61,003 bases of DNA from Candidatus Didemnitutus sp. (GTDB lineage: Bacteria; Verrucomicrobiota; Verrucomicrobiia; Opitutales; Opitutaceae): contig JAMPXH010000009.1 in assembly GCA_023701285.1 (NCBI GenBank), forward strand, positions 1-61,003. The letters are read 5' to 3'. Under the pieces are notes generated by a model. That model was given only the letters and a program-made list of their open reading frames with translations, searched no databases and was not told the origin of the DNA. Positions 8,530 to 61,003 of this stretch are shown here, one piece after another; within the stretch, counting starts at the first letter, position 1, and each line of letters begins with the position of its first letter. The position numbers and the translations under genes were made by a program.

Positions 8530-10203
8530 TCAGCCCCGCATCTCGCGCAGGATGCTCGTGAGGTAGGGGATGAGCTGTTTCTTGCGGGAGACGATGCCGG
8601 GCATGTCGAAGATCTCGTCCTGCTGGACATGCGCGTAGGAGATGCGGCGGATGAACTCCGGGTCGCCCTTCACGAGCATGAGCGAGTTCTGCGTGTTGAT
8701 GTCGGTGACGAGCAGGGCGGCAAAGGCGAGTTTCTCGGTGTTGCGCAGGTCGGCGAGGGCGGCGGCGATGTCCTTGGCGTGGGCCCAGAAGTTGTCGAAG
8801 CCGAGTTCCTCGACCTGCGAGACGGCGAAGGTGACGCCTTCTTCGTCGTAGATCTTGAAGTCGGAGCGGACGACCTTCTCCGGCGGGCTGGCGAGGATGA
8901 CGGAGCCGGAGCTGAAGATGAGTTCGGCGAGGGCCTTGGCCTTGATGTCGGCGTGGGTCTCGAGCCAGGCGAGCGTGTCGGCGTCCTTGGGCGTGGAGGT
9001 CGGGCTTTGCAGGAGCAGGGTGTCGGAGATGAGCCCGGACATCATGAGGCCGGCGAGGTCGGGGCCGGGCTTGAGGCCGTAGCGGCGGAAGAGGTCGGCG
9101 ACGATGGTGCAGGTGGAGCCGACGGGGTCGTTGAGGAAGAAAATCGGCTGCGGCGTGGCCATCGGCCCGAGGCGGTGGTGGTCGATGATTTCGGTGATGG
9201 TGACCTCGTCGGCGCCGGCGACGGCCTGGGTGAGTTCGTTGTGGTCGACGAGCACGAGGCGGGTCGGCACGGGCTTGAGGACGTCGGATTTGGTGAGGAT
9301 GCCGCGGAGCTTGCCGTCGTCGCCGACGACGAGGAAGGCGGGGGCCGAGGAGGCGCCGAGTCGACGGCGGATGTCGGCGAGGCGCACGTCGGGGCCGACG
9401 GTGTTGAAATTGCGGTCGATGATCGGCGCGAGGCGGCCGGCGGTGCGGATGAGGAGGGCGGTGGTGGCGGTGTCGTAGGGGCTGATCAGGAGGTTGACGC
9501 CGCGGGCGCGGGCGGCGTCGACGACTTCCGGAGCGGCGGGCTTGCCGCCGGTGATGACCAAGGTGCGGACGCCGAGTTCGATGGACTTGCGTTGGATGTC
9601 CTGGCGGTCGCCGACGACGATGATGGACTTGTCGGCCGGGATGCCCTCGGCCTGCGAGAGGCGCCAGAAGGAGGAAATGTCCATGGCGCCGATGCGGACG
9701 TAGCACTCCTCGACGCGGTCGGCGTGGGCGCCGAGATGGACGATCTCGGCCTGCAGGGTGCGGGCGATGGAGTTGAGGTCGGCGGTGACCAGGCGCATGC
9801 GCTTGGGCTCGGCGATCTGGGGGAGGAAGGCGTGGGCGAGCTGCGGGGCGGTGACGGTGCCGACGACCTGTTGATCGCGGTCGACGACCGGGACGACGCG
9901 GTGGCCGTAACGGTCGATGGATTCAAGGGCCTCGGCGTAGGTGGCGTCGTCGGTGACGCTGTGGACGTCGTGCACCATGACGTCGTGCACGCGCGGGGAG
10001 ACGTCACTGAGGTAGAGGGGCAGGGGCGTGCGGAAGCGGGCGAGGATGGCGTCGATGCGGGCGTTGGAATTGCCGCAGCGGGCGGGCACGTAGCCGGTCT
10101 CGCCGCGCGCCTCCTTGAAGGCGGCGTAGGCGATGGCGGAGCAGATGGAGTCAGCGTCGGGGTTGCGGTGTCCGATGACGAAGGTGGAGGGCACGGGGTC
10201 CAT
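8530..10203 (-). CDS. Family II (DHH) inorganic pyrophosphatase with CBS and DRTGG domains
   Basis: Hydrolyses pyrophosphate in the cytosol with a manganese/cobalt centre. The N-terminal catalytic half has GHRNPDADS (residues 11-19), then a CBS domain from about 70, a DRTGG-like middle and a second CBS motif. The catalytic half then resumes with VDHNE near 318 and the DHH signature (IIDHHRLGP) near 338. The C-terminal DHHA2 domain ends in SRKKQLIPYLTSIL. At 557 residues it is far longer than simple family II enzymes (about 310), as expected for the CBS-regulated class that responds to adenine nucleotides. A strong terminator lies upstream, so it has its own promoter. Confidence 0.92.
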   Translation of the reverse strand: MDPVPSTFVIGHRNPDADSICSAIAYAAFKEARGETGYVPARCGNSNARIDAILARFRTPLPLYLSDVSPRVHDVMVHDVHSVTDDATYAEALESIDRYGHRVVPVVDRDQQVVGTVTAPQLAHAFLPQIAEPKRMRLVTADLNSIARTLQAEIVHLGAHADRVEECYVRIGAMDISSFWRLSQAEGIPADKSIIVVGDRQDIQRKSIELGVRTLVITGGKPAAPEVVDAARARGVNLLISPYDTATTALLIRTAGRLAPIIDRNFNTVGPDVRLADIRRRLGASSAPAFLVVGDDGKLRGILTKSDVLKPVPTRLVLVDHNELTQAVAGADEVTITEIIDHHRLGPMATPQPIFFLNDPVGSTCTIVADLFRRYGLKPGPDLAGLMMSGLISDTLLLQSPTSTPKDADTLAWLETHADIKAKALAELIFSSGSVILASPPEKVVRSDFKIYDEEGVTFAVSQVEELGFDNFWAHAKDIAAALADLRNTEKLAFAALLVTDINTQNSLMLVKGDPEFIRRISYAHVQQDEIFDMPGIVSRKKQLIPYLTSILREMRG

Positions 10204-10250
10204 GAACGAAAGCGGCCCAAGCTAGGCGCTGGGGCGGGTGGGGAAAGAAA

Positions 10251-10285
10251 AAAGCCCGGCCTGTGCGGGCCGGGCTTTTGTTTTT
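10251..10285. terminator. Bidirectional terminator between the pseudopilin and pyrophosphatase genes
   Basis: The arms AAAGCCCGGCC (10251-10261) and GGCCGGGCTTT (10268-10278) form an 11-bp stem with a short loop and T-runs on both strands. It serves the pseudopilin gene, whose stop is 37 bases away on the minus strand. Confidence 0.85.
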
Positions 10286-10321
10286 GCCGAAAGCAATGGC
10301 GGGAATCTGACGAACTACTCG

Positions 10322-11053
10322 CTATTGCGGAGTCTGGCCCTGCACCCCGCCTACGGTTCCTAGGGTGGCGGAACTCGTCCCGTAAACGCGAGCGTTGACG
10401 GGAATGGCTTGGAGCAGGGACGGACCCTTTCTGCCGTTGGTCAGTGTGAGCTGACTGCCGGTTTCACTGGTGTTGGGGTAAAACTGGACGTTGCCGCCCA
10501 GAAATGCGATGTGGCCGCCGGTCTCGCGATAGACACCCTTGGTGGCGTCCCAGAAGCCGGTGGAGAGCAGGCCGCGGGTGAAGGCGACGGGGGTGGACGG
10601 GCCGTCGCTCATGCGGAGGCCGCCGACGAATTCGAAGCTGAGGTCGCGCGAGGCGAAATCCGTGGAAAGCACGTTGCGCGTGCCGGGCTCGATGATGGCG
10701 GTGGGGTAGACGCCGTTGAAGACGGGGTCGTTCTTCGCGAAATAGAAGGTGGGGTCGGTGAGGATGCCGCGCTGGGCCAGGACGCCGGCGAAGAGGTGGG
10801 CGCCGTTGCCGCCGGAGATCTGGGCCGCGAGGGCGGTGGGGTCGGGCAGGCGGTCGTTGTTGTCCGCCGCGTAGATCTGGGCGGCTTTCACGATCTCGCG
10901 CAGGTTGTTGGCATCGACCGTGCGTTGGGCGGTTTCGCGCACTTTACCCACGGTGGGGAAAATGAGGGCCGCCAGAATCCCGATGATGGCGATGACTGTG
11001 AGCAGCTCGATCAGCGTAAAGCCTGCTTCAGTGCGACGGGCGGCGAAGACCAT
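10322..11053 (-). CDS. Type II secretion/type IV pilin-like pseudopilin
   Basis: A 243-residue protein starting MVFAARRTEAGFTLIELLTV. It shows the prepilin peptidase site (Gly-Phe with Glu at +5) followed by a hydrophobic helix to about residue 32. The rest is a globular domain with a heptad-like region (ETAQRTVDANNLREIVKAAQ) and the ending common in Verrucomicrobia/Planctomycetes pseudopilins, where a header HIAFLGGNVQFYPN precedes the tail. These bacteria encode many such single pseudopilins without adjacent assembly genes, and none is adjacent here. The role (secretion, surface display or pilus) is undetermined. Confidence 0.85.
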   Translation of the reverse strand: MVFAARRTEAGFTLIELLTVIAIIGILAALIFPTVGKVRETAQRTVDANNLREIVKAAQIYAADNNDRLPDPTALAAQISGGNGAHLFAGVLAQRGILTDPTFYFAKNDPVFNGVYPTAIIEPGTRNVLSTDFASRDLSFEFVGGLRMSDGPSTPVAFTRGLLSTGFWDATKGVYRETGGHIAFLGGNVQFYPNTSETGSQLTLTNGRKGPSLLQAIPVNARVYGTSSATLGTVGGVQGQTPQ

Positions 11054-11373
11054 AAAAGTTAAGTTAAAGTCGAGTCATACCAACCGATGACTTCAAGCCG
11101 ATTCTCGCGCCGGGGCCGGCTTTGACGCGTTAATCGCCGCGGCTGGCGCTGGTTTTGCGGTCTTGGCTGGAGTCGTGTCAGCCAGCGGCGCGCGGTCCGG
11201 TTGGCGCACGCTGGATGTGTCATGCGGGCCGGCGCGGAGGGCGAACCGAGGACTGCGCACTTGCTTCGCGGGTGGGTTTGAGCATTTTCGCTCTGGGCTG
11301 GGGAACGCAGACGGGCCGGGCACCGGGGTGAACGGCGCCGGCGCGCGAACCCGGCACTCTCCACGAATTTTAC
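11054..11373. other. 320-bp divergent intergenic region
   Basis: Separates the pseudopilin gene (minus) from mcsA (plus). It must hold both promoters, but I see no convincing -35/-10 pair, no CIRCE element, no CtsR heptad repeat and no small gene. The first 40 bases beside the pseudopilin are AT-richer (AAGTTAAGTTAAAG) than the rest. Confidence 0.5.
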
Positions 11374-11889
11374 ATGGCCAACTCCCTCAAGTGCGACCTT
11401 TGCGCCAAGCCGGCGACCGTCCACCTCACGCAGATCGTCAATAACAAGATCCACAAGGTCGATCTGTGCGAAGCGTGCGCGCAGGCCAAGGGCGTGACCG
11501 ACCCCAGCGGCTTCTCGCTGGCTGACCTCCTGCTGAAGGCTTCCCTGAATCCCGAGCCCGGTGGCGACGCGGCCTGCGAGGTTTGTGGTTTCACCCAGCA
11601 GGATTTCAAAAAGACCGGTCGTTTCGGTTGTCCGGCTTGCTATGAAGCCTTCGCCCGCACCCTCGAGCCCGTGCTCGAAAGCATGCACAAGGGCGTGGCC
11701 CATGTCGGCAAGGTCCCGCAAAAGGCCTTGGAGCGTCGTTCGCTTTACGACCGCCTCACCGAGCTGGAAACCGAGCTCGAGCAGGCGATCAAGTCCGAGC
11801 GTTACGAGGACGCGGCCCGCTACCGCGACGAAATTCACCAGGTCCGGCAAGCCGTCGGCAAGAAGACGTCCGCGCGCCATGAAGATTAA
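11374..11889 (+). CDS. mcsA: McsA-like zinc-finger/UVR-domain activator of McsB
   Basis: A 171-residue cofactor of the protein arginine kinase McsB. Four Cys-X2-Cys pairs are seen: CDLC, CEAC, CEVC and CPAC, which should bind two zinc ions. A C-terminal UVR motif (LETELEQAIKSERYEDAARY) is the type shared with UvrB/UvrC and the ClpC middle domain. It overlaps mcsB by 11 bases and clpC follows, the same order as in Firmicutes. The Firmicutes repressor gene ctsR is not in front. Confidence 0.9.
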   Translation: MANSLKCDLCAKPATVHLTQIVNNKIHKVDLCEACAQAKGVTDPSGFSLADLLLKASLNPEPGGDAACEVCGFTQQDFKKTGRFGCPACYEAFARTLEPVLESMHKGVAHVGKVPQKALERRSLYDRLTELETELEQAIKSERYEDAARYRDEIHQVRQAVGKKTSARHED

Positions 11890-12961
11890 CGAACTCATCG
11901 CCGGCTCCTCCGAACTCACCGACACCGGTGCGAACAAGACCGCGGTCGTCCTGATGACGCGCATCCGCCTCGCGCGCAACCTCGCCCGGATGCCTTTCCC
12001 GGGCTGGGCCAAGGAAACGCAGCGCCGCGAGGTGCTCGCCTCCTGCCTGCAGGCCGTCGCCTCGCTGCCGCAGATGAAGCGCGGCCTCGCCGTCGGCTTG
12101 GAGGACCTCGACGACCTCGAACGCCAGATCCTCGTCGAGCGGCACCTCATCAGCCGCGAGCTCAGTCACGGCAAGGCCGGTTGCGGCGTCGTCGTCAGCA
12201 AGGACCAGTCCTGCGTGGTGATGATCAACGAGGAGGACCATCTCCGCATCCAGGTCCTCCGCGCCGGTTTCCAGTTCAAGAAGGTCTGGAACACCATCGA
12301 CGCGCTCGACACCGAGCTCGAGGAGCACCTCGACTACGCGTTCTCGCCGCAACTCGGTTACCTCACCGCCTGCCCGACCAACCTCGGCACCGCGATCCGG
12401 GCCTCGACGATGATGCACCTGCCCGCCCTCGTGATCTCGGGCCAGATGGAGAAGGTCGTCCGCGCGGTCAACCAGCTCGGCATGGCCGTGCGCGGCCTCT
12501 TCGGCGAAGGCTCCGACGCCAGCGGCTCCATCTTCCAGATCTCCAACCAGACGACGCTCGGCGAGACCGAGGAGGATATCATCAAGCACCTCACCGGCGT
12601 GCTGAACACCATCATCGAGCAGGAACTCAACGCCCGCGAGCGCCTGATCGAGACCGAGCCGGCGAAGCTCTTCGACAAGATCGGTCGCGCCTACGGCATC
12701 CTCCAGCACGGTTACCTGCTCAACTCCGGCGAGGCGATGAATCTCCTCTCGCTCATCCGCCTCGGCATCGACCTCGGCATGTTCCCGGACACGCAGCGCG
12801 CCTTCATCGACCGCCTCTTCATTGAGTGCCAGCCCGGCCACATCCAGCACGCCCATCGCGGCAGCGTCGAGGCCGGCCAGCGCGACGTGCTGCGCGGCCA
12901 GTTGCTGCGCGCCGAATTTGCCAAACTGCCCGGCCCGGACTTCAGTAGGGCCAGCCAGTAA
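11879..12961 (+). CDS. mcsB: Protein arginine kinase McsB
   Basis: Phosphorylates arginines of damaged or regulatory proteins, marking them for ClpC-ClpP. It belongs to the ATP:guanido phosphotransferase (phosphagen kinase) family. Seen are the arginine-rich nucleotide site MTRIRLARNL, the INEEDHLRIQV block near residues 116-126 and the late RDVLRG near 334-339. The last corresponds to the RDXXRA phosphoarginine-sensing motif of bacterial McsB with Gly in place of the final Ala. Its 360 residues match the family. The ATG at 11879 lies inside the end of mcsA, so translation is coupled. Confidence 0.93.
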   Translation: MKINELIAGSSELTDTGANKTAVVLMTRIRLARNLARMPFPGWAKETQRREVLASCLQAVASLPQMKRGLAVGLEDLDDLERQILVERHLISRELSHGKAGCGVVVSKDQSCVVMINEEDHLRIQVLRAGFQFKKVWNTIDALDTELEEHLDYAFSPQLGYLTACPTNLGTAIRASTMMHLPALVISGQMEKVVRAVNQLGMAVRGLFGEGSDASGSIFQISNQTTLGETEEDIIKHLTGVLNTIIEQELNARERLIETEPAKLFDKIGRAYGILQHGYLLNSGEAMNLLSLIRLGIDLGMFPDTQRAFIDRLFIECQPGHIQHAHRGSVEAGQRDVLRGQLLRAEFAKLPGPDFSRASQ

Positions 12962-52715: not shown

Positions 52716-53381
52716 ATGGCCAACCGCTGGATCACCTTCGATTGCTTCGGCACGCTCGTCGACTGGCATATGGGTTTTGCGAACATCCTGCGCCCCCTCG
52801 CCGGTGAGCGTGTTGGCGAACTCGTCGCCGCCTACCACCGCTTCGAACGTCCACTCGAGGAGGCGCGCCCGCACCGGCTCTACGCCGAGGTGCTCTGCGA
52901 AGGCGTTGCCCGCGCTGCGCGCGAGATCGGCCTGAACGTGAACGTCGCCACGCTCGACGCTCTCCCTGAGAACTGGGCCACGCAGCCGATCTTCCCCGAT
53001 GTCGAACCCGCGCTGGCCGAGCTGCGCGCCGCCGGGTGGAAACTCGCCGTGCTGACGAACTGCGACCGCGCCCTGTTCGCGCAGACGGAGCGCGGGTTTC
53101 GCCAGCCGTTCGATCTCGTCGTCACGGCGGAGGAGGTGAAAGATTACAAACCCTCGCTCGCGCACTTCCGGCATTTCTGGCGCGTCAGCGGCGTGGAGCG
53201 GCGGGATTGGGTGCACGCCGCCTGCAGTTTCTACCACGACATCGGCCCGGCGCGCGCAATGGATATCGCCCGCATCTGGGTCGACCGCGATCGCACCGGC
53301 GAGGATCCCGCCGCGGCCTCGGCGCACCTCGGCTCGCTGGCCGACTTGCCGGCGACGGTTCAGCGACTGACGAGATCGTAG
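52716..53381 (+). CDS. HAD-superfamily hydrolase, haloacid dehalogenase type II-like
   Basis: A 221-residue HAD hydrolase with motif I ITFDCFGTLVDW (nucleophile Asp), the cap sequence, motif II LAVLTNCDR and motif III Lys in EEVKDYKPS. The motif IV region HAACSFYHDIGPARAM has an Asp. The FDCFGTLVDW start is the type seen in 2-haloacid dehalogenases and related phosphatases. The substrate cannot be told. Its 3' end overlaps the convergent ABC gene by 22 bases. Confidence 0.85.
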   Translation: MANRWITFDCFGTLVDWHMGFANILRPLAGERVGELVAAYHRFERPLEEARPHRLYAEVLCEGVARAAREIGLNVNVATLDALPENWATQPIFPDVEPALAELRAAGWKLAVLTNCDRALFAQTERGFRQPFDLVVTAEEVKDYKPSLAHFRHFWRVSGVERRDWVHAACSFYHDIGPARAMDIARIWVDRDRTGEDPAAASAHLGSLADLPATVQRLTRS

Positions 53382-54172
53382 TGCCCGCGCGTGCGCACCA
53401 AGCGCAGCGGCTGGCCGAAAAGCCGCGATAACGAGGCCGAGCTGAGCACGCGCCGTGGCGGCCCGTCGGCCACGATGCCGCCGGCGCGCATCAGCAGCAC
53501 CCGGTCGATCTCCGGCACGAGGTCCGCGACGTTGTGCGTGACGAGCACGACACTCTTGCGGCGACGGCAAAGCATCCGCAGCACGCGGCGAAACTCGATC
53601 ACGGCGGCGGGATCGAGGCTGGTCGTCGGTTCGTCGAACAGCACTGCGGCCGGGTCGTGCACGATCGCGCGGCCGATGAAGCAGCGGCGCTGTTCGCCGG
53701 ACGACATCTCGCGCAGCGAGCGCTTCGCAAGGTGGGCTATGCCGAGTAAACGCAGCACACTGCACGCGCGGCGGCGGTGGCTCGCTGTCGGATGCATGTG
53801 CGGCCACAGGCCGATGCTGTCGAAGAAACCGGACAACACCAATTCGAGCCCGGTGACCGTCCGCTCGGTGACCTCGGCGGACAGCCTGAGCAACTGATCG
53901 AGCGCGACGACGCCGAGGGTTTTTCTGAAATCAGTGATGTCGGCAAATTCCTCGCCCAGCAGCCGGAAGCGGTAGCCAGGAGTGTCGGTGACGGGGTAGA
54001 GCTCCCGCGTGAGTGTCTTGATAAGGGTCGACTTGCCGCATCCATTTGGCCCGAGGATGGCGAGGTGCTCGCCGGCACGGAGTTGCAGATCGAGACCGTG
54101 CAACGCGCGGCGCTCGCCGCGGTAGACGGTGAGCTGCCGGAAATCGAAGAGCAGGGGCGCGGTGTCGGGCAC
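53360..54172 (-). CDS. Orphan ABC transporter ATP-binding protein
   Basis: A 270-residue ATPase with Walker A GPNGCGKST (41-49), an LSGGQ-like MSSGEQRR, Walker B AAVLFDEPTTSLD and the switch His in LVTHN. It has no membrane domain and no permease gene is adjacent. The layout resembles the ModF/YlmA stand-alone group. It may serve a permease coded elsewhere or act without transport. It is divergent from ric. Confidence 0.85.
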   Translation of the reverse strand: MPDTAPLLFDFRQLTVYRGERRALHGLDLQLRAGEHLAILGPNGCGKSTLIKTLTRELYPVTDTPGYRFRLLGEEFADITDFRKTLGVVALDQLLRLSAEVTERTVTGLELVLSGFFDSIGLWPHMHPTASHRRRACSVLRLLGIAHLAKRSLREMSSGEQRRCFIGRAIVHDPAAVLFDEPTTSLDPAAVIEFRRVLRMLCRRRKSVVLVTHNVADLVPEIDRVLLMRAGGIVADGPPRRVLSSASLSRLFGQPLRLVRTRGHYDLVSR

Positions 54173-54259
54173 GGGTGGTCATTTCGCACGAACTCCGCTG
54201 CCGCGGCAAGCGTCGGGCGCTGCCCGCTTTGATCTCCCGGCGGCGGGCGCGAGGAATGT

Positions 54260-54273
54260 TTGATTCAGCTCAA
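54260..54273 (+). promoter_or_regulatory. FNR/Dnr-type box upstream of ric
   Basis: TTGATTCAGCTCAA, matching TTGAT-N4-ATCAA at 9 of 10 conserved positions. It is centred 44.5 bases before the ric ATG, where a class II activator site would put the transcript start about 3 bases before the AUG. A weak -10 (TAAGGT, 54296-54301) fits. Confidence 0.65.
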
Positions 54274-54310
54274 GGCGCACCGGCCGGGCAGCGGGTAAGG
54301 TCGCGGCACG

Positions 54311-55045
54311 ATGTCAACAACCTCCACGAAACCAACTCTCAGTGCCGACCTCACCGTCGGCGAAATCGTCGCGGCCTGGCCGACCCTCGCGCGGGTCTTC
54401 GAGCAGCTCAAGGTCGACTACTGCTGCGGCGGCAAGCGTCCGCTCCGCCAGGTCTGCACCGAACTGCGGCTCGATCCCGTCTCGGTCGTGGCGCTGTTGC
54501 AGGCCTCGGTCGATGCGCTGGCCTCCGCGGCCGGCAGCGAGCTCGATGTCTCGGCGTATTCGCTCACTGAGCTGGCGGATCACATCGAGCGCACGCACCA
54601 CGCCTACGTGAAGGCCGAGTTGCCGCGCCTGTGCGAGATGGCCGACCGGGTGGCACGCAAGCATTCCTGGCGCGACGAGCGGCTCGTCGACGTGGCGGAG
54701 ACCACGCTCGCTCTGGCCGCCGAGATGTTCAGCCACATGGACAAGGAGGAAAAGATCCTCTTCCCGCTCGTGCGCCAGATCGAGCGCGGCGCCTCGGACC
54801 AGTTTCACTGCGGCTCCATCGCCAATCCCATCCGCCAGATGGAGGACGAGCACGAGAGCGCCGGCCAGGCCGTGGCGCGGTTGCGGGAGCTGACGGACGG
54901 CTTCGCGCCGGCCGAGGACGCCTGCAACACGCACCGCGCGCTGCTCGCCGGACTGGCCGAGTTCGAGTCCGATCTGCACCGCCACGTGCACAAGGAGAAC
55001 AACATCCTGTTCCCGCGCACGCTGCAGGTGGCCGGCAACAACTGA
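54311..55045 (+). CDS. ric: RIC/YtfE/ScdA-type iron-sulfur cluster repair di-iron protein
   Basis: Repairs Fe-S clusters damaged by nitric oxide or peroxide. Its 244 residues have an N-terminal DUF542 domain with the Cys-Cys motif DYCCGG (36-41). A hemerythrin-like four-helix domain follows, with its ligands in IERTHHAYVKAELPR, HMDKEEKILFPLV, EDEHESAG and HRHVHKENNILFPR. An FNR/Dnr-type box lies upstream and a terminator downstream. A regulator gene of that family is next on the opposite strand, which supports NO stress control. Confidence 0.93.
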   Translation: MSTTSTKPTLSADLTVGEIVAAWPTLARVFEQLKVDYCCGGKRPLRQVCTELRLDPVSVVALLQASVDALASAAGSELDVSAYSLTELADHIERTHHAYVKAELPRLCEMADRVARKHSWRDERLVDVAETTLALAAEMFSHMDKEEKILFPLVRQIERGASDQFHCGSIANPIRQMEDEHESAGQAVARLRELTDGFAPAEDACNTHRALLAGLAEFESDLHRHVHKENNILFPRTLQVAGNN

Positions 55046-55073
55046 CGTGCCGCAGCCCCTGCGCTGTTCATTC

Positions 55074-55107
55074 GCCGGGTCCGCGCGAGCGGCCCGGCTT
55101 TTGCTTT
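55074..55107 (+). terminator. Terminator of ric
   Basis: GCCGGG (55074-55079) pairs with CCCGGC (55093-55098), extended by an inner CCGC/GCGG stem, followed by TTTTGCTTTT. It abuts the stop codon of the convergent regulator gene. Confidence 0.75.
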
Positions 55108-55827
55108 TCAGGCTTCGCCGAGGTTCCGGCGCAGCATCGCGGCGAGTTCCTGCGGCTGGTGCACCGCGATCGATTTGCCGTGCACGGAGATCAGCTTCTG
55201 CGTGCGCAGGCGGGCCAGCGTCCGCGAGAGCGTCTCGCTGCTCGTGCCCAGCTCGGCGGCGAGCACGCGCTTGGTGCCGGAGAGCTTGATCACGCCGCCG
55301 CGCGCCTGCGCGCCGTGTTTCACGAGCCAGTTGAGCAGGCGCGTCTCCACGTCCTTCAGCGTGAGGTCGTCCAGCATGCCCACGAGCACGCGCAGGTGCG
55401 CGCTCATCGATCCGAGCATGCGCATCGCGAGGTCGGGACGCTGCCCGATGAGCTCGAGGATCGGAGCCTTGGGGATCAGCAGCACCGAGCTCGGCTCGAC
55501 CGCGCGCGCGTTGGCCGGGTAGCCCGTGGGCGAGGCGAGCGAGGCCTCGGCCAGCGATTCGCCCGAGCGGAAGACGTGGATGACCTGCTCCTTGCCCGCG
55601 GCGTTCACGCGGTGGACGTTCAAGGCCCCGCTTTGCACGATGTAGCAGCCGCGGGACGGCTCTCCTTCGCGGAACAGGTAGGCGTCCTTCGGCAGCGCGA
55701 CCGTCGTGGTGAACGCGGCGATCGTCGTCAGGTCCTCGGCCGACAGGCCGCTGAAGAGCTGCGCGCAACGGAGCGACCCAATGAGGCCGGTGATCTTGAG
55801 ATCGGCAGGGCGGGGACTGACGGGCAT
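55108..55827 (-). CDS. Crp/Fnr-family transcriptional regulator, Dnr-like
   Basis: A 239-residue regulator with a cNMP-binding-type sensor domain (DAYLFREGEPSRGCYIVQSG), a dimerisation helix and an HTH domain. The recognition helix TSSETLSRTLARL has the Glu198-X2-Ser201-Arg202 residues that in FNR read TTGAT half-sites. It lacks the N-terminal cysteine cluster of FNR (only Cys21 and Cys61), so it is unlikely to hold a [4Fe-4S] cluster. A haem-type NO sensor as in Dnr is the best inference. Matching boxes lie near three neighbouring genes. Confidence 0.88.
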   Translation of the reverse strand: MPVSPRPADLKITGLIGSLRCAQLFSGLSAEDLTTIAAFTTTVALPKDAYLFREGEPSRGCYIVQSGALNVHRVNAAGKEQVIHVFRSGESLAEASLASPTGYPANARAVEPSSVLLIPKAPILELIGQRPDLAMRMLGSMSAHLRVLVGMLDDLTLKDVETRLLNWLVKHGAQARGGVIKLSGTKRVLAAELGTSSETLSRTLARLRTQKLISVHGKSIAVHQPQELAAMLRRNLGEA

Positions 55828-55936
55828 CGTTGCCAGTTAAGCGAGCGGAGTGCCGCCGCCAAGTTTTCCTTGCATAAAATCGCCTCGGCCGGACCGCGCG
55901 CGGCACCGCGGCAACGAACGGAAATCGCGCCGGAAT

Positions 55937-55950
55937 TTGACTTGGATCAA
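55937..55950 (+). promoter_or_regulatory. FNR/Dnr-type box between the regulator and the CXC gene
   Basis: TTGACTTGGATCAA; on the opposite strand it reads TTGAT-N4-GTCAA, matching the Dnr/ANR consensus fully. It is centred 44.5 bases before the ATG at 55988 and about 116 bases upstream of the divergent regulator's start. It could serve both, but its position fits activation of the plus-strand gene. Confidence 0.8.
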
Positions 55951-55971
55951 GGCGGCCGCGTCCGGACGGAC

Positions 55972-55977
55972 GATAAT
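55972..55977 (+). promoter_or_regulatory. -10 element of the CXC gene
   Basis: GATAAT, five of six matches to TATAAT. With the box centre at 55943.5 it fits a class II site at -41.5 and a transcript start near 55984-55985. It overlaps the ATG at 55976, which argues that this ATG is not the translation start. Confidence 0.55.
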
Positions 55978-55987
55978 GCGCGACCCC

Positions 55988-56404
55988 ATGGAACCGGAAC
56001 TCGTTCAACGTCTGCGCGCGCGACGGGCGCAGATCCATGCCCGCTGGGAGGCTTTCCTGCGTCTGGAAAAGGCGACCGGCCCGCTGGCTAACCCGGATAC
56101 GTTGGTCTTCGGCGTCGATGCCTCCCTGCGCGAGATCTTCTCGGCGCTCCGCGCGGCTGAACCTTTGCCCGAGGAACAGGCTGAGGAGTGCGGCTGCGGC
56201 CGTCATCCATTGCAGGCCTATTACCGGGCCGGCGAGCAAGCGGTGCTGGAGGCGCTGGTGCTCGTGCAGGCCGAGCGCGCACCCTTGCCGGCGGAGGTGC
56301 GTGACCGCGAATTCGCGGAGGTGAAACGCGTGGTCACGGCGCTGGCGCGGCGTGATCTGGGCGCCTTCGCCCGCCTCTGCCAGCTGGATCGCCCGGCGCA
56401 GTGA
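55988..56404 (+). CDS. Small Cys-X-Cys protein of unknown function under a Dnr-type box
   Basis: A 138-residue all-helical soluble protein I do not recognise. The N-terminal half is basic (MEPELVQRLRARRAQIHARW) and the centre carries EECGCGRHP with Cys68, Cys70 and His73, a possible metal or haem site. The C-terminal half is helical (AYYRAGEQAVLEALVLVQAE). An ATG at 55976 in frame was rejected because it lies within a -10 promoter element. Its only clear clue is its place under an NO/low-oxygen promoter beside the Dnr-like gene. The last 184 bases overlap the antisense tail of the next gene. Confidence 0.65.
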   Translation: MEPELVQRLRARRAQIHARWEAFLRLEKATGPLANPDTLVFGVDASLREIFSALRAAEPLPEEQAEECGCGRHPLQAYYRAGEQAVLEALVLVQAERAPLPAEVRDREFAEVKRVVTALARRDLGAFARLCQLDRPAQ

Positions 56405-56781
56405 GGCCGCGTCCGGCCGGCCCCCCAGCCACAGCCCGGCGCGGGCGGCGTGGCTTGGATGACGAGCAGCGTCAGCTCATCGAGCGCGCGCACGGCGTGA
56501 GGAGCCTTGGGCGGCATGTGCAGCAATTCGCCCGGCGTGAGCACGCGCGGCTGGCCGTCGATGGTGAACTCGCAACGTCCGCTCATCACCTGCACGAGCA
56601 CGCGGGCACTGCTCGTGTGCTCCGAGAGTTCCTGGCCCGGCGCGAACTTGAACAGCGTCGCACGCAGCCCGGGGGCCGTGAGCAGCGCCTGGCTGACGAT
56701 GCCGTGGGCCACGCGGTCGACGGGGATTTGCAGCGGGCAGGTGCCACTGGTTTCAGGAGCGAGCAGGGCGGAGGAGGACAT
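56221..56781 (-). CDS. Cupin-domain protein with an antisense-overlapping tail
   Basis: The first 115 residues form a single cupin: FKFAPGQELSEHTSSARVLV, VMSGRCEFTIDG and GELLHMPPKAPHAVRALDEL, with metal-ligand-like His residues. The frame then continues 70 residues with no stop, through Arg/Ser/Ala-rich sequence that is the antisense of the CXC gene. Either the tail is translated, or a stop codon has been lost. Such small cupins accompany NO-stress genes. It is 68 bases downstream of the DUF2249 gene, probably in its transcript. Confidence 0.68.
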   Translation of the reverse strand: MSSSALLAPETSGTCPLQIPVDRVAHGIVSQALLTAPGLRATLFKFAPGQELSEHTSSARVLVQVMSGRCEFTIDGQPRVLTPGELLHMPPKAPHAVRALDELTLLVIQATPPAPGCGWGAGRTRPHCAGRSSWQRRAKAPRSRRASAVTTRFTSANSRSRTSAGKGARSACTSTSASSTACSPAR

Positions 56782-56849
56782 GGTGGGAAAAGGTTTTCAG
56801 TTGCACAGTGGGGAGCGCAGGAACGCGCAGGAGGCGCCGACGCTCACGG

Positions 56850-57083
56850 TCAGTCTCTCCAGAAATTCACCGCCCATGCGCCGTCGGCGCGGCGCTCCAT
56901 CGTCGTGGAATAGCCTTCGCTTTGCAGCAGCTCGACCAGCGGGGCGGGCAGAAAGGGCGCGACGACCGTGAGACCCTGGCCGGCCTCCAGCGCATCGACG
57001 CGCTCGCGGATGAGGGGGAAGGGTTCGTTGCCGGCGGCCAGATGCGGACGCACGTCGAAGGTCTTGAAAGTCTTGGGTTTCAT
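56850..57083 (-). CDS. DUF2249 protein
   Basis: A 77-residue protein of the DUF2249 family: KTFDVRPHLAAGNEPFPLIR and a C-terminal EGYSTTMERRADGAWAVNFW. Members are often encoded with ric, Crp/Fnr regulators and denitrification genes, with a TusA-like fold but unproven role. The ATG at 57083 is 58.5 bases downstream of a Dnr-type box centre. With a -41.5 site the transcript would start near 57100, and the extended -10 (TGCTAACCT on the minus strand) agrees. Confidence 0.82.
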   Translation of the reverse strand: MKPKTFKTFDVRPHLAAGNEPFPLIRERVDALEAGQGLTVVAPFLPAPLVELLQSEGYSTTMERRADGAWAVNFWRD

Positions 57084-57134
57084 GGCGAAGGAGCGGAAAC
57101 AGGGACAGGTTAGCAGAGAAGCGGGAGGAAAACC

Positions 57135-57148
57135 TTGATTCCCATCAT
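57135..57148 (-). promoter_or_regulatory. FNR/Dnr-type box upstream of the DUF2249-cupin pair
   Basis: TTGATTCCCATCAT on the plus strand, with one mismatch to TTGAT-N4-ATCAA. It is centred about 41.5 bases before the transcript start predicted from the TAACCT -10 at 57107-57112 (minus strand, with an upstream TG). It sits just beyond the 3' end of the cytochrome b fusion gene. Confidence 0.6.
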
Positions 57149-57172
57149 GCAAACCCGCTCTGCGTGCGCAAT

Positions 57173-59293
57173 TCAGGGTTCGCGGCGGAAACCCGTCCCC
57201 GGCTCGAAAGAGATGACCACCAGCCGTCCGGGTTCGGCCGTAAATGTCCCATCCCACACCTGCGCGGCGCTTTCCGCGCCCGGAGCCGTGCTCACGCTCA
57301 AGCTCAGGGTATGCGCGCCGACCGCGAGCGGACGCCGCAACTCGCCGATGGAGGCTCCGTCGGATTTGAAGCCCTTGGGCCGGAACACATGTTCCTCCGC
57401 TTGCCCGTCGAGTTCGAGCCGCACGGTGACGGGCGCACGCGACCGGTTGGTGTGCATCGTCGCGCGCATGTGCACGGGCCGATCATCCGCGGCCGCCTGC
57501 GTCGTGGCATCGAGCCAATCGCCATACGCGCGGAAACTGAACACGAGCTCCGGCACCGGCGCCGTCGGATGGCGGAAGGGCGCGTCGCTCACCCAGATCA
57601 AGCCTGCGAACAGCAACACCGTGAGCCCCGCCGCGGCGGCGAGCAGGCGGAAACGCGTGGGACGCGTCGCTGACGGCGACGGCTCGCCTTGCCACAGGCG
57701 TGCCGCGGCGCGGGTGAGATCGCCGGGGCGCGTCGGATCGTAGCGCACATGCGCCGTCTTGCGCGGATCGGCGCGATTCGGCCGGAAATGCGGTTCGCGT
57801 TCGCCGCGGAGCCGGAGCGGCAGCCACGCATCGCCTTCGCGGCAGAACGGATCGCTGTTCACGGTGCTCACGACGAGCACCGCGCGGGCGCCTTTCGCGA
57901 TGAGCGACTCGATCACCTTCGGTTCGACCCAGCCCGAGGAAGGCACCGGCCGCACCTCATAGCCCGGCAAGCGCGCGCGCCAAGCTGCCGCCTGAAAGAA
58001 ATCCCACCCGCCGTCGGCTTGCGAGCAGACCAAAGCCAGCGCCGGGGCCTTGCCGCCTGCGACTTCCCCGCTGACGTAATCCTGCAACTCCCGCGTCACG
58101 CGGCGGGCGTCGAACCACGCCATGCCGATCGCCTGCGTGTCGCACGATCCGGTGCAGATGCCGCAGCCGACGCAACGGTCCGGATCGACCTGGGCTTGGG
58201 AAGGGAAAGGTTTCCCATCGGTGCGCGTCACCATCGTGATCGCACCGAACGGACAAGCCTGCGCGCATTGCGTGCACGAGAAGCAGCGCGACGTGTTTAC
58301 CGTCGCCTGATAGCTCGCCCGCGCGCGCCGCCGGCCCAGCCACCATGGCACGGTTGCGAGCACGAGCAGGAACGACCCGGCGGCCAGCCAGACTCCCGCG
58401 CCCGAGAGACGGGCGGAGAGCGTCAGCGGCCAGAGATACCACCAGTCCATCGTGAAGGCCTGCGGCTTGAGCGCCATGTCGGCCGGCGCCGCGACATCCG
58501 CCGGCACGATCAGCGCGACGAGCACAGTGGCCACGGTCAGCCAGACCGAGAAGCGCGCCACCGGCAGCAGCTTCGTGCGGCTCAACCGCGCCAGATGCAG
58601 GCAAAGCCCGGCCGCGATCGCCAGCGGCAGCACCATGTGGAGAAAGAAGACGACGAAGAAGAGCAGCGACGGCACCGTGTGGTTGGCCGCGAACAGCCGG
58701 CCCATTGGCTCGCCGAAGATCGGGAGCACGTCGACGGCCTTCATCGTGTCGAGCGCGACCCACTGCGCCCGGACGTCCCACACCAGCCAGTAGCCGGTCC
58801 AGCCGATGAACCACACCAGCGCCAGCAACAGCACGCCGCTGACCCAGGCCAGCCAGCGCGCTCCGGGGAATTTACGCGCAACGAACGCGCGCACCGCGTG
58901 CCCTAGGATGAACAGCATCGCTAAATCAGAGGCGTAGCGATGCACGCTGCGTAGCACGCCGCCGATCGAGCGCGGGCCGAGTTCGGCGAGAGAACTCCAC
59001 GCCTGATGCACGCTCGGGGAATACCAGAACAGCATCAGCACGCCCGAGACGGTCGCGAGCAGCAGCGCGGCATTGGCGGCCGCCCCGAGTTGGGCCAGCG
59101 GGTTGTAGTCGCGTGGCAACGCCCGTTCGACCCACGCGTCCGCGCGCACGAAAAGCCGCTCCGCCCAAGCGAGAACCCGCGTCCCGCGCGTCGCCGGTAA
59201 AGGTGCGGTGGGTGCGCTGATCGGCTCGCCGCCCGGCCCGAGCGTATCCGCCAGCGTCTCGCAATCCGGTTCCGGATGATGATGCCCGCTCAT
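57173..59293 (-). CDS. Cytochrome b / two-[4Fe-4S] ferredoxin / degenerate MvhD-like fusion protein
   Basis: A 706-residue membrane electron-transfer protein. Residues 70-320 form a cytochrome b6-like unit with two His-X13-His pairs: H118/H132 and H205/H219, for two b haems. Two [4Fe-4S] motifs follow: C337, C340, C343, C347 (CFSCTQCAQACPFGAI) and C374, C377, C380, C384 (CVGCGICTGSCD). Residues about 418-530 align by pattern with the MvhD/FlpD hydrogenase iron-sulfur domain, but its cysteines are mostly lost (PSSGWVEP for CSGRVDP; only C423 and C484 remain). A last helix (LLAAAAGLTVLLFAGLIW) and an extracytoplasmic domain end it. It could pass quinol electrons to an oxidase or NO reductase. 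Its promoter region carries the nested palindromes. Confidence 0.8.
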   Translation of the reverse strand: MSGHHHPEPDCETLADTLGPGGEPISAPTAPLPATRGTRVLAWAERLFVRADAWVERALPRDYNPLAQLGAAANAALLLATVSGVLMLFWYSPSVHQAWSSLAELGPRSIGGVLRSVHRYASDLAMLFILGHAVRAFVARKFPGARWLAWVSGVLLLALVWFIGWTGYWLVWDVRAQWVALDTMKAVDVLPIFGEPMGRLFAANHTVPSLLFFVVFFLHMVLPLAIAAGLCLHLARLSRTKLLPVARFSVWLTVATVLVALIVPADVAAPADMALKPQAFTMDWWYLWPLTLSARLSGAGVWLAAGSFLLVLATVPWWLGRRRARASYQATVNTSRCFSCTQCAQACPFGAITMVTRTDGKPFPSQAQVDPDRCVGCGICTGSCDTQAIGMAWFDARRVTRELQDYVSGEVAGGKAPALALVCSQADGGWDFFQAAAWRARLPGYEVRPVPSSGWVEPKVIESLIAKGARAVLVVSTVNSDPFCREGDAWLPLRLRGEREPHFRPNRADPRKTAHVRYDPTRPGDLTRAAARLWQGEPSPSATRPTRFRLLAAAAGLTVLLFAGLIWVSDAPFRHPTAPVPELVFSFRAYGDWLDATTQAAADDRPVHMRATMHTNRSRAPVTVRLELDGQAEEHVFRPKGFKSDGASIGELRRPLAVGAHTLSLSVSTAPGAESAAQVWDGTFTAEPGRLVVISFEPGTGFRREP

Positions 59294-59395
59294 CGGCAAT
59301 TCCTCCGCCCGCCCTCGTTCCTCGCCTGAAGTGGATGCTTCGCTCCGTGTCCGGTTGCCTCCACAACGCATCGGTCCACACCGCGCGGGTCGACG

Positions 59396-59493
59396 TCCCA
59401 AAGGTAACCTATTAGGTTACCAAGCAGCACTCGCGTCACTCGTATCACGGCGAAAGTTCGGTGAAAATGGTAACCTAATAGGTTACTTTGGGA
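59396..59493. repeat. 98-bp nested-palindrome element upstream of the cytochrome b fusion gene
   Basis: Two inverted arms, 59396-59421 and 59469-59493, match over 25 bases apart from one inserted G and both begin, reading inward, TCCCAAAG. Each arm contains a palindrome, GGTAACCTATTAGGTTACC at 59403-59421 and its inverted mate at 59469-59487 (18 of 19). The 47-bp centre is AT-richer than its surroundings. It lies in the 217-bp gap after the SCO gene, 103-200 bases before the cytochrome b start. Paired operators, a cruciform or a tiny mobile element are all possible. Confidence 0.8.
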
Positions 59494-59510
59494 GCACGTG
59501 GCGCGGGCGA

Positions 59511-60491
59511 TCATCGAGATTCGGCGAGGAGGGAACCAAGGGCGGCGCGGAGCCAGGCGCGGTGGCGAGGCTCGAGCGTGAAGCGGTAGGCGATCTGGCC
59601 GCGGCGGTCGACGAGGAGGAAGAGATTCACGTGCTCGATGACGCCCGTTTCGGGATTGCGGACGCGGGAGAATTGCAGGCGCGACAGCAGGTCGAGCATG
59701 TCGGCCGGGCGCGCGGTGTTGACGTAGCGGAATTCCGGATGCGTGAAGCCCTGGCTCTGCGCCATGAGGTCCATCAGTTCGGCCGTCTCGTATTCGGGAT
59801 TGAGCGTCAGCGCCACGACGCGCACGCCAGCGCGCTCGTCCGCCGGCAGGTCCGCGAGCAGGGCGCGCGTTTCCTTGATGATTTCGGGGCAGGCGGTGGT
59901 GCACGCGGCATAGATGCCGGTGACGAGGATGACCTCGCCGTGCAGGTCGGAAAAGCGGAAGGGAGCGCCCTTCTGATCGATGAGCGCCACATCGGGAATT
60001 TCGAGGGCAACGCGGATGCGCTCACCGGGGAAAGGCGGCAACGCCTCCGCCGCCCGCACCTCGGTTTGCGCGTAGGCGACAAGGCCGGCGATGGCACCGG
60101 CGATGACGAGCAGTGCTGCGGTCGCGGCACCGGCGTGCCGGCGCCAGGTGTGTGCGTGGCGCAGTTCCAAGAGTGTCGAGCGCCAGAGCACGACCGCCAC
60201 GCCGACGACGAAGAGCGGCTCGATCAGCATGACGCTCACGGCGGTCCACGACATGCCGCCGGTGCGCGGGTCGAGGTTGTAGCACCAAAGCTGGAAATCG
60301 CGCACGAAGCCGCCGAGCCAGCCGCTTTCGAGCGGCCAGAAAATCGTGAAGAGGAGAAACACCTCGTAGGCGGCGAGCGCGGTCACGAGAAAGACCATCA
60401 GGCCCGCGCCGGTGAAAAACTGTCCGGCACGGGCGACGGCGCTGGCGCGGCCGAGCGGTGGCGAAGCGGGAGAGTGGGCGGGAGCGAGCAT
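59511..60491 (-). CDS. SCO-family protein with an N-terminal multi-helix membrane domain
   Basis: SCO/SenC thioredoxin-fold proteins deliver copper or redox equivalents during cytochrome oxidase-type assembly. The C-terminal domain has the copper/redox motif CTTAC (C197, C201) in IYAACTTACPEI and the expected His287 in IEHVNLFLLVD. Unusually the N-terminal 145 residues hold three membrane helices (near 31-52, 84-104 and 121-141) with a conserved-looking loop FQLWCYNLDPRTGGMSW. The start is the ATG at 60491. It lies downstream of the membrane-protein gene at the window edge and upstream of the cytochrome b fusion. Confidence 0.88.
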   Translation of the reverse strand: MLAPAHSPASPPLGRASAVARAGQFFTGAGLMVFLVTALAAYEVFLLFTIFWPLESGWLGGFVRDFQLWCYNLDPRTGGMSWTAVSVMLIEPLFVVGVAVVLWRSTLLELRHAHTWRRHAGAATAALLVIAGAIAGLVAYAQTEVRAAEALPPFPGERIRVALEIPDVALIDQKGAPFRFSDLHGEVILVTGIYAACTTACPEIIKETRALLADLPADERAGVRVVALTLNPEYETAELMDLMAQSQGFTHPEFRYVNTARPADMLDLLSRLQFSRVRNPETGVIEHVNLFLLVDRRGQIAYRFTLEPRHRAWLRAALGSLLAESR

Positions 60492-60563
60492 GATCGGGAA
60501 GGGCGCACTGAGCGATGAGCAGTGAGCGGTGAATCCGAGGGGCGGGAGGGGTTGGGAACGTGG

Positions 60564-60590
60564 GTAGGGCCGGCGACGAACGCCGGCCCC
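60564..60590 (+). repeat. REP-like stem-loop, copy f
   Basis: GGTAGGG head. The arms GGGCCGGCG (60567-60575) and CGCCGGCCC (60581-60589) form a 9-bp stem with an ACGAA loop. It lies between the partial membrane-protein gene and the SCO gene; the rest of that 179-bp gap holds no gene. Confidence 0.55.
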
Positions 60591-60670
60591 ATGAGTCAGA
60601 TTGGATTCGAAAACAAGCGGGACGGCGGTCGACCCGCCGCCCCGCGAGCACTAGGCTGAGAAAAATCCGC

Positions 60671-61003
60671 TCAACGCACGGGCCAGACGTCGGCCAGCGC
60701 CTTCCAATTGGCGAAGTAATAGACCGCGAAGCAGCCGAGGAACACGAGGGTGAGGATGATCGTGCCCTTGGTCGCGTAGTGGTCGTGGGCGAGTGAGCCG
60801 TCCTTGAAACCGGCGAGCGGCTGCACGGTGCCCCAGTCGGCCATCGGGCGGCCTTCGGTCTTCTTGCCGAAGAGCAGCGTGCCCACGCAGAGGAGCACGA
60901 AGATGAGCAGGCTGGTGAAAGCCAGCACGCCGCCGATGCCGACGAAGCCGAGCCAGAGGTGCGCGGCGGCGCTGTAGATGCCCTGCGCGTCGATGTCCCA
61001 CGA
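60671..61003 (-). CDS. C-terminal 110 residues of a membrane protein (5' end outside the window)
   Basis: The frame is open to the window edge, so the gene continues beyond 61003. The visible part has two membrane helices (GVLAFTSLLIFVLLCVGTLL and IILTLVFLGCFAVYYFANW) separated by a hydrophilic loop with HDHYATKG. It ends LADVWPVR. Position before an SCO gene and beside the NO-response genes suggests a subunit of a haem-copper oxidase or nitric oxide reductase. The visible piece has no diagnostic haem ligands, so this remains a guess. Confidence 0.6.
   Translation of the reverse strand, partial: SWDIDAQGIYSAAAHLWLGFVGIGGVLAFTSLLIFVLLCVGTLLFGKKTEGRPMADWGTVQPLAGFKDGSLAHDHYATKGTIILTLVFLGCFAVYYFANWKALADVWPVR

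Follow-up and report, generated by a model that had tools for sequence, protein, structure and literature searches.

The locus analysed in this study raises the question of which partner is served, and by what kind of chemistry, by a single membrane protein in which a cytochrome b is joined to two [4Fe-4S] ferredoxin motifs, an MvhD-like domain and a periplasmic beta-sandwich. This 706-residue protein (the fusion) is encoded close to the end of a 61,003-nucleotide stretch from Candidatus Didemnitutus sp., a member of the Opitutaceae; the stretch, referred to below as the window, is the entire contig JAMPXH010000009.1 (C89) of assembly GCA_023701285.1. A first-pass annotation, made from the letters alone, had proposed a dedicated conduit from quinol to a partner, with the membrane enzyme next to SCO at the edge of the window as a possible acceptor. 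That enzyme is now identified as an eNOR-type nitric oxide (NO) reductase, and linkage supports it as the partner; the quinol donor and the direction of electron flow were not established. Overall, the fusion is probably a dedicated helper of eNOR.

The open reading frame of the fusion starts with an ATG at position 59293, and Pfam finds in its product Cytochrome_B (PF00033; residues 67-239, E=2.5e-22) and two Fer4 stretches (residues 331-391). Relatives were collected by one pattern-based scan of GTDB genomes, which returned 66 loci, and the resulting alignment has 67 rows, some of them partial. The haem-type histidines are kept in 66/66 (H118), 65/66 (H132), 67/67 (H219) and 67/67 (H233) rows, and each of the eight Fe-S cysteines in 66 of 66 aligned rows. 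From these conserved ligands, two b haems and two [4Fe-4S] clusters are predicted in one polypeptide, as in the first-pass annotation. An AlphaFold2 model built with 53 relatives (mean predicted local distance difference test (pLDDT) 86.4, predicted template modelling score (pTM) 0.85) places helices A-F first, followed by the ferredoxin part, an alpha/beta domain, a seventh helix (547-569) and the beta-sandwich. The membrane part matches the cytochrome b chains of bc1 and bcc complexes, the best being 9ftz_H (VIA Z 22.9, 254 residues, root-mean-square deviation (rmsd) 3.2); the structural alignment, known by its range ends only, extends to residue 375 in the best row and to 573-579 in many others. 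Like these cytochromes, the fusion has two His pairs in helices B and D of the bundle; unlike them, it stands in an operon where no Rieske or cytochrome c1 partner was found, cytoplasmic Fe-S modules are inserted before its last helix, and the cytochrome b C-terminal family PF00032 was not found by Pfam in this genome.

The loops contain 0.15-0.38 lysine plus arginine per residue on the predicted cytoplasmic side versus 0.05-0.09 on the other side. From this positive-inside pattern, a periplasmic location is predicted for the beta-sandwich and a cytoplasmic one for the Fe-S and MvhD parts; the model agrees, and the further extracytoplasmic domain suspected at first is thereby supported. When a FixG_C-like fold was sought in the beta-sandwich, the structural matches were of generic beta-sandwich type only (Z at most 8.1).

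The window ends within the gene of the partner. Contig C146 of the same assembly carries subunit I residues 1-501, a CuA subunit, a 49-residue transmembrane (TM) gene and a haem-copper-oxidase-like (HCO-like) gene. The 34 subunit I residues shared by C89 (60671-61003) and C146 (L071:3-1505(-)) differ at 2 positions and no exact overlap was found between the window end and C146; therefore, the join of the two contigs is probable but not proven, and the mismatch possibly reflects a strain mixture or errors at the contig ends. At the site taken up in oxygen reductases by the crosslinked Tyr, subunit I has a Gln in each of the 69 copies whose sequence includes it (located by alignment to the Tyr of ba3 oxidase; 73 loci, some overlapping). 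This replacement is described as diagnostic of eNOR (PMC8756737, cited, like the other papers below apart from PMC4653789, from the passages available). The adjoining subunit II has the CuA motif CxExCxxxHxxM in 61/61 copies, and the CxxxC of SCO is kept in 72/72 loci (some loci overlap in both counts); the COX2 match of the CuA subunit is just above threshold (23.3 versus 22 bits). As judged from these residues, the enzyme at the window edge is subunit I of an eNOR-type reductase, with NO reduction as its putative activity.

Linkage between the two is tight. The fusion is immediately preceded by SCO and eNOR subunit I in 54 of the 57 loci with at least 1.5 kb of upstream sequence (the other 9 of 66 fell short of this length and are not included; L059 is counted as linked though its subunit I is a C-terminal piece only). 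A lack of ties between orthologues and oxidase or NO reductase genes, raised as a doubt in the first-pass annotation, is thus not what was found. The complete five-gene module (HCO-like protein of 487 residues, 49-residue TM protein, CuA subunit, subunit I, SCO) is present in 39/45 loci, and three others (L040, L062, L066) are without only the HCO-like gene at the threshold used. As for the exceptions, the L063 genome has eNOR elsewhere, and no eNOR was found in the genomes of L041 and L052, both metagenome-assembled genomes (MAGs). The L052 copy (9875-11335(+)) is truncated inside the MvhD domain at 487 residues and lies beside a cytochrome P450; next to the L041 copy (9962-12076(+)), one of four scanned neighbours has a Pfam match, a DUF1501 protein.

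Co-occurrence points in the same direction. Among 200 Opitutaceae genomes, the fusion is found in 43 and eNOR in 44, with both in 42, the fusion only in 1 and eNOR only in 2 (Fisher p 1.3e-39, a value that ignores shared ancestry and is inflated by it). All 36 pairs on the same contig are co-directional and 940-1400 bp apart; in the two eNOR-only genomes the contig breaks just downstream of eNOR, and in the fusion-only genome a piece of subunit I lies beside the fusion. In 235 genomes of a second phylum, that of L051 (Myxococcota by label), the fusion occurs in 30 and eNOR in 28, all 28 shared, and the gene is close to a contig end in the two fusion-only genomes. In 288 genomes of the window's own phylum, a sample that overlaps with the Opitutaceae one, the fusion and eNOR (at least 55% identity) are in the same 6 genomes; subunit I has matches of 27-33% identity in another 8, a level expected of oxygen reductases. 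In one genome (G651) the fusion gene is flipped, yet still adjoins eNOR. The fusion thus accompanies eNOR in two phyla, Verrucomicrobiota and the second one sampled, as well as on a single alphaproteobacterial plasmid, and since it adjoins eNOR in several bacterial groups, it is probably a dedicated electron helper of this enzyme. In another genome (G402, L087:6342-9023(-)), a middle piece of eNOR subunit I and the fusion are read as one continuous frame of 894 residues, the result of either a natural deletion or an assembly artefact. Fusions between SCO and the cytochrome, suggested by long open frames, were not found in the loci checked.

Plasmid-borne eNOR loci show what may be dispensed with. 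Fifty plasmid records matched subunit I, and four of eNOR type were examined. Two Thermus loci and one Thermomicrobium locus (44-45% identity) keep the Gln and have a CuA subunit; neither SCO nor the fusion was detected within 8 kb, with incomplete gene tables for the plasmids. Therefore, the fusion looks like an accessory rather than a part of the catalytic core. On the Defluviimonas plasmid the order is CuA subunit, subunit I, haem o synthase, SCO, a cytochrome b-ferredoxin-MvhD protein (WP_347309654, named 'cytochrome b N-terminal domain-containing protein' in the record) and a 172-residue protein that matches the C-terminal profile of the fusion (1.7e-21). The domain order and the setting beside SCO and eNOR are as in the window, unlike which the periplasmic domain is a separate gene and all four MvhD cysteines are kept. 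Thus, the periplasmic domain is a separable module, and SCO and the fusion, both present here and both undetected in the Thermus and Thermomicrobium loci, appear to travel together.

What the helper does is less clear. The explanation tentatively favoured, with less than even confidence, is that the fusion is a dedicated accessory and transmembrane electron conduit which, with SCO, serves the reductive maturation or activation of the eNOR copper sites. The two cytoplasmic [4Fe-4S] clusters would connect to the two b haems crossing the membrane towards the periplasmic beta-sandwich, and the fusion would act as CcoG does in cbb3 oxidase assembly or NosR in nitrous oxide (N2O) reduction. Together with the adjacent SCO, it would supply periplasmic electrons that reduce copper or the thiols of SCO and CuA, and this reduction would allow the CuA site of eNOR, perhaps also CuB, to be loaded or kept active. 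This explanation is favoured because of the pairing with SCO, the absence of the fusion from leaner eNOR loci, the CcoG-like layout, and the alternative complex III (ACIII) genes of the genome.

CcoG (FixG/RdxA), the cupric reductase of cbb3 oxidase assembly, has two tetranuclear Fe-S clusters and a periplasmic Ig-like C-terminus, and its gene lies just downstream of the oxidase genes as part of a copper module (PMC7558416). The fusion is likewise a membrane protein with two [4Fe-4S] motifs and a periplasmic C-terminal beta domain, encoded directly downstream of the structural genes of a haem-copper enzyme; it differs in its two-haem cytochrome b bundle, its additional MvhD domain and a C-terminal domain that is not detectably FixG_C. 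Homology to CcoG was rejected at the sequence level: the full-length hhalign match (probability 94.9%) covers the ferredoxin motifs only, the C-terminal domain reaches 2.3% against FixG_C (with 5 of 8 fetched CcoG C-termini), and FixG_C (PF11614) has no Pfam match in the fusion. With NosR and NapH, thought to pass electrons to one reductase or to activate it (PMC5928378), the fusion shares the character of a dedicated membrane [4Fe-4S] protein; it has a b-type cytochrome scaffold in place of the periplasmic flavin mononucleotide (FMN)-binding domain of NosR, which is not among its 17 Pfam families at E<=1.

Several points weigh against a maturation role. The C-terminal domain has no detectable relation to FixG_C, a separate FixG_C gene exists in the same genome, and a copper-binding motif was not shown in the periplasmic domain. 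The complete cytochrome b bundle exceeds the needs of a cupric reductase and suggests quinone chemistry, and eNorB has been called quinol-dependent in the passages covered (PMC13274419). The absence of SCO from the Thermus and Thermomicrobium loci is uncertain, since the search had a low sensitivity (for the SCO of Defluviimonas it gave no more than 25% identity, 5.7e-6) and an upstream gene of the Thermomicrobium locus is annotated as 'cytochrome c oxidase assembly protein'; a haem o synthase lies downstream there. In addition, all of the linkage evidence would fit electron delivery during turnover just as well.

Such delivery is a close and quite possible rival, and the one nearest to the first-pass idea: the fusion may be the electron-input subunit of an eNOR supercomplex, in which menaquinol on the p-side, or a cytoplasmic donor linked to ferredoxin or NAD(P)H, would feed the b haems and then CuA. 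The near-obligate pairing and tight gene order suit it, as does the match to whole cytochrome b chains, which is not confined to the b6 half. In the p-side loop there is an xDWWYLxP motif, which we take to resemble the PEWY quinol-site motif of cytochrome b, and its Asp283 is invariant (67/67 rows). The ferredoxin part is the most constrained of the protein, with ratios of nonsynonymous to synonymous substitution rates (dN/dS) of 0.016-0.08 within the window's clade, and the quinol dependence ascribed to eNorB also agrees with a role in turnover. The fusion is, however, not nearby in the three Thermus and Thermomicrobium loci; no Pfam match to Rieske or cytochrome c1 was found among the operon genes scanned (the 49-residue gene was not in the scan). 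Moreover, the Fe-S domains are predicted to be cytoplasmic and CuA is periplasmic, so that a simple wire from quinol to CuA does not fit. The genome also carries ACIII genes (ActD, NrfD, Fe-S), and a quinol route to periplasmic carriers may therefore exist without the fusion.

It is unlikely, but would be of consequence, that the fusion is a near-obligate partner of one eNOR subclass and links NO reduction, by way of a cytochrome b, with the ferredoxin pool of the cytoplasm. Ferredoxin would then drive NO reduction across the membrane, or quinol oxidation would be split between eNOR and ferredoxin. If so, these operons would encode an NO reductase supercomplex able to draw directly on low-potential electrons.

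A general electron-transfer protein that is merely co-inherited with eNOR as a hitchhiker on a denitrification island, with no functional tie, is improbable. The L041 and L052 genomes in which eNOR was not found, the truncated L052 copy and the shared ancestry behind the co-occurrence statistic would suit it, whereas such exceptions are only 2 of 57 loci, both in MAGs, the genes keep their order and spacing in two phyla, and adjacency survives the gene flip of G651. Similarly improbable is a bifurcating or reverse-flow device, in which, of the electrons from p-side quinol oxidation, one would go to eNOR while its counterpart would travel via the b haems to the cytoplasmic [4Fe-4S] clusters and reduce ferredoxin: a cytochrome b fold with a presumably PEWY-like loop is indeed joined to HdrA-like ferredoxin and MvhD modules, which are parts of bifurcating complexes in methanogens, but flavin and Rieske domains are absent among the Pfam matches of the fusion and the onward [2Fe-2S] relay is lost in the window's lineage.

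The MvhD-like domain deserves separate treatment, since it was described at first as MvhD/FlpD-like and stripped of its cysteines. In the window copy the FlpD family (PF02662) is below threshold (E=0.18, 12.3 bits versus a cut-off of 22.3), whereas it matches 40 of 54 scanned relatives at E<=0.01 (best 8.1e-17). Residues 393-706 were modelled alone (pLDDT 86.9), with a pTM of 0.53 that leaves the placement of the domains uncertain. The top four structural matches of this model are all MvhD chains (8rvu_F, 5odh_D, 7bkb_F, 5odc_D; Z 9.3-9.9, the next match having 8.1), with 8rvu_F reaching Z 9.9 over 107 residues at an rmsd of 2.9, and Foldseek gives 5odh_D as the best (2.3e-4). L058, a relative in which all four cysteines are present, gives an alignment to the MvhD chain of the methanogen complex (5odc_D) at 3.5e-10. 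Therefore, the assignment is weak in the window copy alone and sound for the family, and a model failing to superpose on MvhD, named beforehand as a reason for doubt, was not obtained. The domain shares the fold and the ancestral cysteine pattern with MvhD/FlpD of MvhAGD-HdrABC, from which it differs in being fused to a membrane cytochrome b and in the loss of ligands in the window's lineage; neither HdrA nor a hydrogenase was seen in the fusion operon.

Aligned through L058, the motifs SSGWVEP and STVNSDPFC of the window, already pointed out in the first-pass annotation, are opposite the CSGR.. and GC..DC ligand motifs of MvhD. The ligand columns 423, 452, 477 and 482 read C-S-T-P, and three of the four cluster cysteines are lost. 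Over 65 rows (L062 and L068, in which the region is missing, are excluded), four cysteines remain in 9, three in 34, two in 1, one in 8 including the window, and none in 13. The stripped domain is thus real in the window, but it is not a hallmark of the system. Half of the three-cysteine rows (17/34) have a Cys two residues past the fourth ligand, which might substitute for it.

In a tree of 60 rows, from which 7 of the 67, being partial, were excluded, the four-cysteine rows are mostly deltaproteobacterial or Myxococcota by label, the others being one Verrucomicrobiota (L048) and one labelled Pseudomonadota (L060); the Myxococcota rows L054 and L055 have three. Four cysteines were also read by eye in the Defluviimonas copy and in the flipped copy of G651, and four is therefore likely the ancestral state. 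The one-cysteine clade of the window (100/99) nests beside three-cysteine rows, apart from a clade with none or one (100/100), so that the central Cys pair was lost at least 2 times. As read from the tree, the loss is late and repeated, and the second lineage to show it is another one of the Opitutales, independent of that of the window.

The fold outlives the ligands, as had been supposed. The MvhD domain has a dN/dS of 0.06-0.21 in three comparisons within the window's clade, against 0.11 and 0.18 in two comparisons of three-cysteine rows; constraint hence persists after the cysteine loss. In the none-cysteine clade the values are 0.45, 0.40 and 0.19 (three comparisons), and constraint is perhaps relaxed there. 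The domain may formerly have held a [2Fe-2S] relay to a cytoplasmic partner, and after the loss of this relay in the two Opitutales lineages it would stay as a scaffold or docking surface. The fusion family is thus a natural series in which the [2Fe-2S] site of MvhD is lost stepwise and the fold retained.

Table 1. Features of the fusion gene and of the adjoining genes, in window coordinates.
Feature	Position	Strand	Basis
Cytochrome b - 2x[4Fe-4S] ferredoxin - MvhD-like - TM - periplasmic beta-sandwich fusion, 706 aa	57173..59293	(-)	Open reading frame, Pfam, alignment, model
Cytochrome-b-like membrane part, residues 40-320, helices A-F, haem ligands H118/H132/H219/H233	58334..59176	(-)	Pfam, VIA
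Two [4Fe-4S] ferredoxin motifs, residues 331-391, C337,340,343,347,374,377,380,384, predicted cytoplasmic	58121..58303	(-)	Pfam, alignment, loop charges
MvhD/FlpD-fold domain, residues 395-537, 1/4 cluster cysteines (C423 kept; S452, T477, P482)	57683..58111	(-)	Alignment, structure matches
Seventh transmembrane helix, residues 547-569	57587..57655	(-)	Helix in model
Periplasmic beta-sandwich domain, residues 572-706, conserved HMR, DG, GF motifs	57176..57580	(-)	Alignment, model
SCO1/SenC-type protein, Pfam 4.7e-11, two N-terminal hydrophobic helices by eye	59511..60491	(-)	Pfam
C-terminal 110 residues of eNOR subunit I, cut by contig end	60671..61003	(-)	Comparison with contig C146

The wider gene context is best seen in L003, a 93% relative, where the order is nirK, FGE/NirV-type, SCO, porin-like, HCO-like (487 residues), 49-residue TM, CuA subunit, subunit I, SCO and fusion. 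The genes preceding those of eNOR (L003:146-4540) include a nirK with a fused C-terminal cytochrome c domain, the FGE/NirV-type gene and a second SCO, and the whole would form a nitrite-to-N2O cluster; eNOR has been found in an operon with NirK (PMC4653789). The 487-residue HCO-like membrane protein precedes the CuA subunit in most of these operons (L003:4748-6211(+); L071:2235-3698(-)); neither Pfam nor NCBIfam gave a match to its sequence, and PDB gave none that is credible. Four of its His at haem- or CuB-type positions are kept in 46-47 of 47 loci, the position of the His-His pair varies, and it is possibly a second, degenerate HCO subunit.

On the other side of the fusion, genes for the iron-sulfur repair protein RIC/YtfE (1.1e-67), a Crp/FNR-type regulator, DUF2249 and cupin proteins form an NO-response neighbourhood (54311-56404 and 56850-57083); among 35 relative loci of at least 18 kb, RIC is found in 13, Crp in 17 and DUF2249 in 20. 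Two 19-bp near-perfect palindromes lie between SCO and the fusion (59403-59421 and 59469-59487), and in L003, L005 and L016 their core likewise shortly precedes the fusion. A role as operators was rejected: the core occurs at 17 genome sites (<=2 mismatches), with six pairs 65-68 bp apart, and therefore appears to be a dispersed repeat of repetitive extragenic palindromic type. An Rfam scan of 53000-61003 found nothing. The sole other match to the fusion in this genome is a 543-residue open-ended Fe-S protein on contig C73 (L070), in a fragment of a formate-dehydrogenase-like operon named by eye from translations and possibly derived from another organism in the bin.

The eNOR family is a recently recognised group of enzymes producing N2O, a greenhouse gas, and is often misannotated as oxidases (PMC8756737), and is stated to be biochemically characterised (PMC11388526). 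Its occurrence in Verrucomicrobiota is already known (PMC13274419, PMC8756737), and Verruconatronum, which carries eNorAB in its genome, converts nitrite to N2O (PMC13274419). No description of the fusion with eNOR was found in the literature searched, which was mostly short of full texts and did not include the principal eNOR paper, nor was one of the electron and copper supply of eNOR in the passages covered. The fusion is a testable candidate for this supply, and its presence is a genomic marker for the subclass of eNOR that it accompanies.

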